Assembly (NCBI GenBank): GCA_001797335.1
Contig: MGPE01000015.1
Span: forward strand, 79,419 to 143,418
Direction: 5' to 3'
Origin: Deltaproteobacteria bacterium GWA2_38_16
GTDB lineage: Bacteria; Bdellovibrionota; JACOXK01; 2-02-FULL-40-11
Length of the DNA stretch: 64,000 nucleotides
The notes below the pieces were generated by a model. The model worked only from the letters and a program-made list of their open reading frames with translations, was not told the DNA's origin and did not search any database. The position numbers and the translations under genes are program-made. Positions 34,851 to 63,848 of the stretch are shown here, piece by piece; position 1 is the first letter of the stretch, and the number at the start of each line of letters is the position of its first letter.

Positions 34851-35498
34851 CATACCAACTACAGCTTGCGCTGCCCCTCCTTCTTAAGAAAGGTTTGTGG
34901 TCTGGACTTTCTCTTCACCCCTCATCAGGGTGCCTACCATTAAGTCTCTACACCTTCTTCACTAGTTTTAAACCTAATGAAGCTTGGCTCGGGATTACCT
35001 CGCTACAGGCTTCCCCGAATTTGATAGGAGATCCCACATGGGTTTCCCTACGTGTCGCCCATTGCAGAATTAAATTCCAAGCGTCTCGGTATTCGGCAGA
35101 ACGCGGTTTGCGTTGACGTTTTTCCTCTTCTACAAGATGAATTTCACTGCCGTACTCAATGAACACACCTACAGGGAAAACATAGAAAATATTCTTACCT
35201 GCAATATAAATTACAGCAAAGTCAAAATCAGATGATTGATAAGCTTCTCGAATCATATCTCGTCGATTCGTCTTTGTTCGACGATTATCGACAACATAAT
35301 TCAAAGAGGATTCATCTAACCATGCTGATTTTACCTGAATCTTCACAAGAACTCCCTCCACATCAAAAACCAAATCGTAAGGAAGTCGATCGCCAACAGG
35401 CTTCAGAACTCCCCATCCCCGTTTCAATCCTTGAAGGACGGTTTCTTGTTCAGCTATGTCTCCTTTGAGTTTTGTATCCATAGTTAATTCTGCGGTTG
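34851..35498 (-). mobile_element. group I intron in tRNA-fMet
   Basis: Core elements are recognisable in order on the minus strand: P-like AATTCGGGGAAGCC (35022-35009), Q AATCCCGAGCCAAGC (34996-34982), R GGTGTAGAGACTTAATGG (34954-34937), and S GAAGAGAAAGTCCAGACC (34916-34899). The last intron base is G and the preceding exon base is U. This matches the tRNA-type (IC3-like) introns known from tRNA-fMet and tRNA-Leu of cyanobacteria. The intron encodes a homing endonuclease. Confidence 0.9.
34948..35481 (-). CDS. intron homing endonuclease, PD-(D/E)xK type (I-Ssp6803I-like)
   Basis: Begins MDTKLKGDIAEQ, 17 bp into the intron; the track start at 35556 reads through the tRNA exon and is rejected. 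RGWGVLKPVGDRLPYDLVFD and KIQVKSAW give a PD-(D/E)xK-like site with E11, D36 and Q49-x-K51. From memory this is closely similar to I-Ssp6803I, whose gene sits in the tRNA-fMet intron of Synechocystis and cuts intronless tRNA-fMet genes. At 177 residues it is ~27 longer than that enzyme as I recall it; the extra C-terminus (KFGEACSEVIPSQASLGLKL) is encoded by the ribozyme core, and the stop lies in element R. It should promote intron homing. Confidence 0.88.
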   Translation of the reverse strand: MDTKLKGDIAEQETVLQGLKRGWGVLKPVGDRLPYDLVFDVEGVLVKIQVKSAWLDESSLNYVVDNRRTKTNRRDMIREAYQSSDFDFAVIYIAGKNIFYVFPVGVFIEYGSEIHLVEEEKRQRKPRSAEYRDAWNLILQWATRRETHVGSPIKFGEACSEVIPSQASLGLKLVKKV

Positions 35499-39856: not shown

Positions 39857-39884
39857 TGGATCCCGGATCAAGTCCGGGATGACG
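39857..39884. repeat. interspersed palindromic repeat
   Basis: TGGATCCCGGATCAAGTCCG followed by GGATGACG, with arms TCCCGGA/TCCGGGA. Intergenic, between the groEL stop and its terminator. Confidence 0.88.
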
Positions 39885-62396: not shown

Positions 62397-63233
62397 TTAA
62401 ATTCCAAAACTAATCCCGGCCATCATCGTCCAGTATTTATCATATGACCTAAAGCTGACAGGAGGATGCGCACTGGCACCTGACCCATCTGGCCCCCAAA
62501 AAATTTGTCCATTGTGATTATTAAGAAGCGATCCCACTTCGGTTCTTCCCACAATCGCTACTTCTTTGGATAATTTTAATTTCATCCCCCCCAATGCGGA
62601 TGCCCCATACACGGCTTGAGGAAAAGTCACTCGAACAGTTGGATTATCGGTTGTAATATACTCATTATCAAAATAAGAAATCCCTCCTCCAATAAAGGGC
62701 GTTAAAATAGAGTGTGGGAATAATTCATATTTTAAATTTCCTCCAATCATGAGCTGTCTCATATCTCCCAAAGGAATAATCGTAGCAGCTGATGGAGCAT
62801 TCAATGTCGATGGATAGGGAGATCCATAATTCGCCCCCATTACCGTACCCACCCCTCCTAAATTGACAGACACACTTTGTCGAATATCAAACAGAGCATA
62901 GCGAAAAACTCCTTCAATCGATAAATTCGGTGATAGAGGAATTTCTGCCGTAATCCCTGCCGAATATTTATTCCACAATCGTTGATTTCCATCGGCAGAT
63001 CCGATATAGCCATACAAAGGCACCACCCGAAGTCCCAATGGATTTCCACCTCGAAACACCTCTGTGTTAGAACTTGAATCATTGGGTACGTCTGTTTCAA
63101 TGATCATCTTTTTTGGAGCCTCAGGAGCAATCTCTAAGGGCGAAATTTCTTCTGCCCTCACATACTTTGTCCCTAATGCGAATGCCATCCCTGCAAAAGC
63201 CAAGACAGCCAAATGTTTATGGTTTAATTTCAT
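62397..63233 (-). CDS. outer-membrane beta-barrel protein
   Basis: Signal-like N-terminus MKLNHKHLAVLAFAGMAFALG...RAEE, then ~250 residues of alternating strands (VVPLYGYIG; GITAEIPLSPNLSIEGVFRYA; YFDNEYITT) ending in MMAGISFGI. It resembles the small eight-strand barrels (OmpA/OmpW-like, OMP_b-brl). Its role is unknown. It is the first gene of the minus-strand envelope group but has its own terminator. Confidence 0.72.
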   Translation of the reverse strand: MKLNHKHLAVLAFAGMAFALGTKYVRAEEISPLEIAPEAPKKMIIETDVPNDSSSNTEVFRGGNPLGLRVVPLYGYIGSADGNQRLWNKYSAGITAEIPLSPNLSIEGVFRYALFDIRQSVSVNLGGVGTVMGANYGSPYPSTLNAPSAATIIPLGDMRQLMIGGNLKYELFPHSILTPFIGGGISYFDNEYITTDNPTVRVTFPQAVYGASALGGMKLKLSKEVAIVGRTEVGSLLNNHNGQIFWGPDGSGASAHPPVSFRSYDKYWTMMAGISFGI

Positions 63234-63660
63234 TTCCCTTTTCCCCCTTTATTCATTCTCAAACGGTTAAAAACTGTTTCATTCGAGACGAAGCTTAGAG
63301 CAAAATATATGCCTAAATAGAAGGAATTTTATAACTTATTGATTTTATTAAAATTTTATATACTAGAGGTGTTTACTGAACGTTAAAAATACAAGGATCT
63401 GGTGTGCAAACTTTATTCAAATAGGTCAAAAAAATAGAAATTTAATATGTAATTATAAGTACTTATAACTTTTCAGAAAGCGCCCCTACAATGATTAATT
63501 TTTAATCAACAATTTTGGACGCCCTGTCAGAAGAATAACGGAGATAAAGTTTATACTAATAAAATCAATAAGTTAACATCTATTCAAGACACTTTAAAGT
63601 AACAAAAAATGTCTCTCAATAGGAAGGTCCATATAGAACCTGTTGAATTTACACACGTTT
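63234..63660. other. AT-rich gene-free stretch
   Basis: Holds the promoter region of the barrel gene and otherwise no convincing ORF, RNA or repeat that I can see. Several TA-rich tracts lie at 63350-63480. Confidence 0.5.
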
Positions 63661-63666
63661 TTTTGT

Positions 63667-63680
63667 GGCACAAGACTTGC
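63667..63680 (+). promoter_or_regulatory. sigma-54 (-24/-12) promoter
   Basis: TGTGGCACAAGACTTGCTTT contains GGCAC-N5-TTGC with GG and GC exactly 12 bp apart, matching the sigma-54 consensus TGGCAC-N5-TTGC. The transcript would start near 63692. Confidence 0.75.
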
Positions 63681-63691
63681 TTTATATTAAA

Positions 63692-63816
63692 AGTAGAAAG
63701 TTAGTGGTGGAAATAAAGGTAATGTTTTTAGGGTTTTTCCCTTTTCCCCCTTTTAAGGCCCCCAGCCTTATAATTCGTCCCTTTCCCTAAGGACATTACC
63801 TTCCACCCATTTTTTT
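63692..63816 (+). ncRNA. candidate sigma-54-dependent structured small RNA
   Basis: Downstream of the sigma-54 promoter lies a long stem: GGTGGAA/TTCCACC, AGGTAATGT/ACATTACCT, TTAGGG/CCCTAA (63706-63807), then seven T. The inner part is C/T-rich (CCCTTTTCCCCC) with a small AAGGC/GCCTT hairpin. There is no ORF. Promoter, self-complementary body and T-run together suggest a ~125-nt RNA with its own terminator. C-rich single-stranded loops could pair with ribosome-binding sites (inference). Confidence 0.6.
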
Positions 63817-63821
63817 ATTCT

Positions 63822-63848
63822 GTCATCCCGCACTTGATGCGGGATCCA
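63822..63848. repeat. interspersed palindromic repeat
   Basis: GTCATCCCGCACTTGATGCG followed by GGATCCA, with arms ATCCCGCA/TGCGGGAT. It lies directly after the small RNA terminator. Confidence 0.88.

Follow-up and report, generated by a model that had tools for sequence, protein, structure and literature searches.

To our knowledge, stand-alone small RNAs (sRNAs) transcribed from sigma-54 promoters are few. Pxr of Myxococcus xanthus, a former 'deltaproteobacterium', is a stand-alone sRNA of 108 nt with three stem-loops that apparently has a sigma-54 promoter and adjoins the response regulator gene nla19 (PMC5568312). The RpoN-dependent CJnc230 (FlmE) of Campylobacter jejuni carries an anti-Shine-Dalgarno (anti-SD) stretch and represses by binding the ribosome-binding site (RBS) (PMC11187230). 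In Xanthomonas, the Hfq-independent sX13 uses C-rich loops to bind G-rich motifs close to start codons (PMC3771888). Similarly, RepG of Helicobacter pylori pairs the C/U-rich loop of its terminator hairpin with a G-rich leader (PMC8295292). The enterobacterial MicF and MicC genes lie opposite porin genes, and MicF binds a porin mRNA across its RBS and start codon (PMC5745476). NcS25 of Burkholderia cenocepacia is encoded beside a porin gene, shares its terminator with a convergent gene and is predicted to pair with a porin leader (PMC10117139).

Here we describe a locus in the window, the whole 64,000-nt stretch of DNA analysed from Deltaproteobacteria bacterium GWA2_38_16, an uncultured groundwater bacterium, where a sigma-54 promoter is followed by a candidate sRNA beside an outer-membrane protein (OMP) gene (Table 1). 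The promoter, at genome position C15:143084-143098, sits directly 5' of the predicted RNA with no ORF between them. A near-consensus sigma-54 element had been proposed here in a sequence-only reading of this DNA, and genome counts bear this out. The exact pattern TGGCAC-N5-TTGC occurs 37 times in the 2-Mb genome compared with once for the reversed pattern used as a control, and in 28 of 30 inspected copies an ORF on the same strand follows 9-90 nt downstream. Based on these two counts, we conclude that the strict motif is a dependable promoter marker in this genome. Furthermore, the genome (2.0 Mb, 19 contigs, completeness rating 100%) contains an rpoN gene (220 bits), and the sigma-54 activator domain is matched ten times, with seven strong matches. 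Judged by N-termini rather than by profiling, genes for signal-peptide proteins, lipoproteins and Flp-pilin- or secretin-like (Tad-pilus-like) proteins often follow such promoters. The only feature downstream of a separate sigma-54 promoter, L067 (G000:C10:42180-42194), is a hydrophobic ORF of 24 codons, VRIIIPVLAIMVGIINIYLGLKRS, which may encode a small membrane peptide.

Table 1. Predicted features of the sRNA locus, in window coordinates.
Feature	Position	Strand	Basis and remarks
Predicted target gene, 278 aa, probably an eight-stranded outer-membrane beta-barrel (OmpA/OmpX/OmpW-like)	62397..63233	-	Pfam, model, Foldseek
Predicted target site AAAGGGGGAAAAGGGAAA	63233..63250	-	SD through A of ATG, OMP gene
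Perfect inverted repeat TGATTAATTTTTAATCA	63492..63508	.	174 nt before promoter; weak candidate for an activator or OMP-regulator site
Sigma-54 promoter TGGCACAAGACTTGC, TGGCAC-AAGAC-TTGC (-24/-12)	63666..63680	+	Motif, genome counts, conservation
Predicted small RNA, ~131 nt	63691..63822	+	Fold z -5.3; found by covariance model in four genomes
Lower stem, 5' arm GGTGGA	63706..63711	+	Fold; 6 bp, pairs with 63802-63807
Bulge, 5 nt, A/T-rich	63712-63716	+	5' side, between the two stem blocks
Upper stem, 5' arm, 17 bp	63717..63733	+	Fold and compensatory changes; pairs with 63785-63801
C/U-rich loop stretch TTTCCCTTTTCCCCCTTT, predicted seed	63736..63753	+	Perfect complement of 63233-63250
Small inner hairpin (C-rich loop) within apical loop	63754..63770	+	Fold; one compensatory change
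3' arms of upper and lower stem	63785..63807	+	Fold
T-run, intrinsic terminator	63810..63816	+	Sequence; L006 and L008 also have T-rich ends, L007 a weaker one

The self-complementary stretch noted earlier behind the promoter is real: positions 63690-63822 fold at -40.2 kcal/mol compared with -22.4 +/- 3.4 for shuffled sequences (z = -5.3), and none of 200 shuffles was as good. The three stem blocks first described resolve into one long stem in two blocks (6 + 17 bp), and the C-rich loop and T-run stand as described. The apical loop spans 51 nt, is C/U-rich and contains the small inner hairpin. Both ends of the RNA were placed from the sequence, with the start about 12 nt past the GC of the -12 element and the end in the T-run. 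A generic terminator scan misses the hairpin because of its 51-nt loop. Fold energy by itself does not single out the locus, as 82 of 6388 131-nt segments of the window are as stable; the stretches 3' of 30 other sigma-54 promoters are all less stable (the best at -32.8). Thus, the case rests on position behind the promoter and on conservation. The T-run is directly followed by a dispersed palindromic repeat, TGTCATCCCGCACTTGATGCGGGATCCA, at 63821-63848, which has a relative at 39857-39884 and more partial copies elsewhere in the genome.

The same element was found in three genomes of another genus in the family (G002, G003 and G004, together g3; loci L006, L007 and L008), which the genome-collection scan describes as uncultured groundwater 'Deltaproteobacteria' MAGs. 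Their gene order is a divergent OMP gene upstream, the RNA and then a convergent pilin-like gene; the window contig stops 178 nt beyond the RNA, and the downstream neighbor is known from g3 only. Promoter, stem and loop are kept at the syntenic place in all three relatives, and the T-rich end is clear in two of them. The -24/-12 blocks are the same in all four aligned genomes while the 5-nt spacer varies (L006 TGGCACAGTCTTTGC, L007 TGGCACACTCTTTGC, L008 TGGCACGTTCTTTGC), and the fold z-scores range from -4.4 to -5.7. Additionally, a covariance model built on the three g3 copies recovers the window copy with E = 4.9e-13.

In the four-way alignment, all 116 of 116 pair cells are standard, and nine pairs changed on both sides compared with 0 to 2 in slid controls. 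Four of the nine, in helix 1, were discounted because of a one-base register shift in the alignment. The five that were counted comprise three at the top of the long stem, where GGG/CCC, GTC/GAC and AGG/CCT replace one another, a fourth at its base and a fifth, G-C to A-U, in the inner hairpin. We conclude that the covarying base pairs, seen among just four sequences, support a structured non-coding RNA. Four further changes are one-sided, and all give U-G pairs on the plus strand that would be A-C mismatches on the opposite strand. Such sense-only wobbles fit an RNA read from the sigma-54 promoter and make it extremely improbable that the promoter arose by chance and that the stem acts at the DNA level or belongs to the antisense strand. 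The antisense strand does fold well too, at about -47 kcal/mol; against this reading, the exact promoter motif is found in four genomes despite the variable spacer. The sequence-only reading had staked its sigma-54-driven sRNA on close relatives retaining both promoter and stem, and the three g3 genomes do so. Together with the strand-specific wobbles, this conservation supports an sRNA whose expression we infer.

The hairpin might instead be a mere terminator, possibly two-way, that serves the convergent gene and the sigma-54 transcript and has no function in trans. The g3 convergent gene does stop near the hairpin base, and a T-run follows the hairpin on the plus strand. However, the opposite strand has no T-run, the U-G wobbles suit the plus strand alone, and the conserved loop sequence and inner hairpin are unneeded for termination. 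Furthermore, the interval from promoter to hairpin is otherwise empty, so that the transcript would be the hairpin itself. We therefore regard this possibility as improbable. A dual-function or coding RNA appears more doubtful still. In g3, a 16-codon ORF (MMVEFKVMFLRFLFPL in L006) with an AGGTAGG SD runs from the 5' end of the RNA across the 5' arm and the C-run, and its SD and ATG are retained in all three members. In contrast, every codon difference among the three ORFs alters the amino acid. The window copy differs in length and has neither an ATG nor a clear SD, and the bulk of the reading frame would be buried in the stem. The claim that the window copy holds no ORF was nearly right: marginal short ORFs exist, which a coding potential check judged non-coding.

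The RNA is single-copy. A search of the whole order and phylum (369 genomes, 365 beyond the four) under strict filters that may drop weak matches found no further copy in g2, g4 or the 363 other phylum genomes; a genome-collection scan using the OMP likewise gave no additional copy. An Rfam scan for a named family, suggested in the sequence-only reading, returned nothing credible for the RNA at gathering or relaxed thresholds. A viral miRNA match (18.8 bits against a cut-off of 100) was rejected as chance. The same database places a group I intron elsewhere in the window, at 34877-35077 on the minus strand (61.8 bits). Since no Rfam family fits, we file the RNA as a previously uncatalogued family whose general kind is already known. 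The literature searched, in which subscription journals were thinly covered, yielded no sigma-54 sRNA that targets a neighboring OMP.

The inverted repeat TGATTAATTTTTAATCA, upstream of the OMP gene, is conserved in g3 and degenerate in g2 and g4, which lack the sRNA. The genome holds three exact copies and one near copy, compared with none for the reversed control; three of the four are close to sigma-54-like promoters, and two of the four lie at gene ends. We consider the palindrome a weak candidate for an activator site.

The divergent neighbor, present in six of six genomes of the order, likely encodes an eight-stranded outer-membrane barrel. Its Pfam match to OMP_b-brl is weak (E 0.0015, under the cut-off), and its structural model, of low confidence (pLDDT 57), has a signal helix and eight strands. 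Foldseek matches of this model are NspA (1.4e-6), Ail, OmpA, OmpX and OmpW.

The SD of this OMP gene as the likely target of the RNA goes beyond the sequence-only reading, and the match was noticed after the fact, on inspecting the neighbor gene. The loop stretch (UUUCCCUUUUCCCCCUUU), predicted to be unpaired over nearly all its length, complements 18 nt of the OMP leader exactly, from the SD up to and including the A of the ATG. In the whole 2-Mb genome, the loop stretch and the OMP site are the only places with fewer than two mismatches to the 18-mer, and the next-best site for the loop has two. When ungapped helices were ranked across 400 sampled genes, the OMP leader came first at -30.0 kcal/mol compared with -19.5 for the next. 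Shuffling the loop equalled the real pairing in only 1 of 2000 trials and shuffling the leader in none of 2000, and the net pairing after opening both partners is -23.4 kcal/mol. Duplex and opening energies were used in place of co-folding the sRNA with the leader, which is blind to loop pairing inside a closed stem. A gapped duplex ranking, which put the OMP fourth, was set aside for ungapped helices as it was dominated by long internal loops. Because the exposed C-rich loop perfectly matches the OMP ribosome-binding site, the sRNA probably shuts down its neighbor. Additionally, a 5-nt insertion in the loop of the window genome (g1) adds CCC, and the g1 OMP leader carries an additional GGG, both of which are missing from g3. 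This is a single event and no more than suggestive of a link between loop and leader.

In g3, the loops pair with their own OMP leaders over only 9-12 bp. Loop shuffles were as good in 361 of 2000 cases for L006 and 1100 of 2000 for L008, both within chance, and in 54 of 2000 for L007, a modest result. When g3 genes were sampled, the OMP genes ranked near the top as loop partners, in company with others. Furthermore, the OMP genes of g2 and g4 retain the G5 SD with no sRNA beside them, which indicates that the G-run is not maintained for the sRNA. SDs of the AAAGGGGG type are also frequent in the window genome (29 compared with 7 in a control), and several precede secreted or lipoprotein genes. 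Taken together, the short g3 pairing, the G5 kept where the sRNA is absent and the common G-rich SDs suggest that the case for a dedicated OMP contact is strong in the window genome alone, and anti-SD action of the loop is plausible across all four genomes. These observations also bear on a rival reading in which the sRNA is a generic anti-SD RNA against many mRNAs with G-rich SDs and the long OMP match is incidental. The abundance of such SDs and the several good partners in g3 favor it, as do multiple UCCC/CCCC stretches along the RNA, which resemble those of sX13 (PMC3771888). We nevertheless hold it to be unlikely, since the OMP match beats every other sampled gene by 10 kcal/mol and belongs to the neighbor. 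A lipoprotein gene with a sigma-54 promoter and a AAAGGGGGGAAA SD (G000:C2:14843-14894; L040, L109) is a possible second sRNA target, and a secreted-protein gene of G002 (L108, 11966-13333), 6 kb from the sRNA, has an eight-G SD, AAAAGGGGGGGGAAUAUG, and is a strong partner of the g3 loops.

The reading we favor, with reasonable though far from full confidence, is that of a sigma-54-activated, Hfq-independent, stand-alone sRNA that represses translation of the adjacent OMP and perhaps of further genes whose SDs are rich in G. RpoN holoenzyme, triggered by an enhancer-binding protein, would transcribe the gene, and termination would rely on the hairpin and T-run of the transcript itself. The stem would present the long C/U-rich loop, which would form 18 bp with the divergent OMP mRNA at its SD and start region and block ribosome binding, so that the OMP is repressed while the sigma-54 promoter is on. 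Hfq would not be required; none was detected at E <= 1 in this genome rated 100% complete. In the relatives, the same loop with shorter anti-SD pairing may target the OMP as well as additional G-rich SDs. We propose repression by SD occlusion based on the undetected Hfq, the C/U-rich loop like those of sX13 and RepG and the MicF-like covering of the RBS. The promoter, the conserved covarying structure, the complementarity and the lack of a detectable Hfq are all facts at the level of sequence, from which we infer transcription, an activator and repression.

In enterobacteria, sigma-E turns on envelope genes and, via an sRNA, lowers an outer-membrane protein. More tentatively, at somewhat less than an even chance, we hypothesize that sigma-54 here couples a secretion and pilus envelope program to translational shut-off of the OMP through a new Hfq-independent sRNA family, whose loop and leader co-evolved in one small lineage. 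If so, sigma-54 would take the part of the enterobacterial sigma-E, with envelope genes on and the OMP down via an sRNA.

Compared with the described systems, the RNA shares features with several. Like Pxr, it is stand-alone and has the same promoter type. In contrast, the three stem-loops of Pxr are replaced by one long stem with an inner hairpin, and the neighbors are the OMP and a convergent pilin-like gene rather than nla19; Rfam gives no match, and homology with Pxr is unsupported by any test. As in sX13- and RepG-type sRNAs, a C-rich loop that is predicted to be unpaired complements a G-rich leader here. However, sX13 has three stem-loops where this RNA has one long stem with a large loop, and RepG, alike in its C/U-rich loop and G-rich leader, comes from a distant lineage. 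Extended complementarity to an OMP SD and start codon, as for MicF, reaches 18 bp in this genome, whereas the Hfq partner of that type has no counterpart here at E <= 1. MicF and MicC themselves are Hfq-dependent, are not sigma-54 RNAs and target a porin other than the adjacent one. CJnc230 is processed from the flgE mRNA and has flagellar-regulator targets, whereas this RNA is stand-alone. The studied target of NcS25 is likewise not the adjacent porin, and NcS25 is reported as constitutive (PMC10117139). The present locus thus offers a candidate stand-alone sigma-54 sRNA, in a genome without a detected Hfq, that combines a promoter and a conserved structure with a concrete, testable target.
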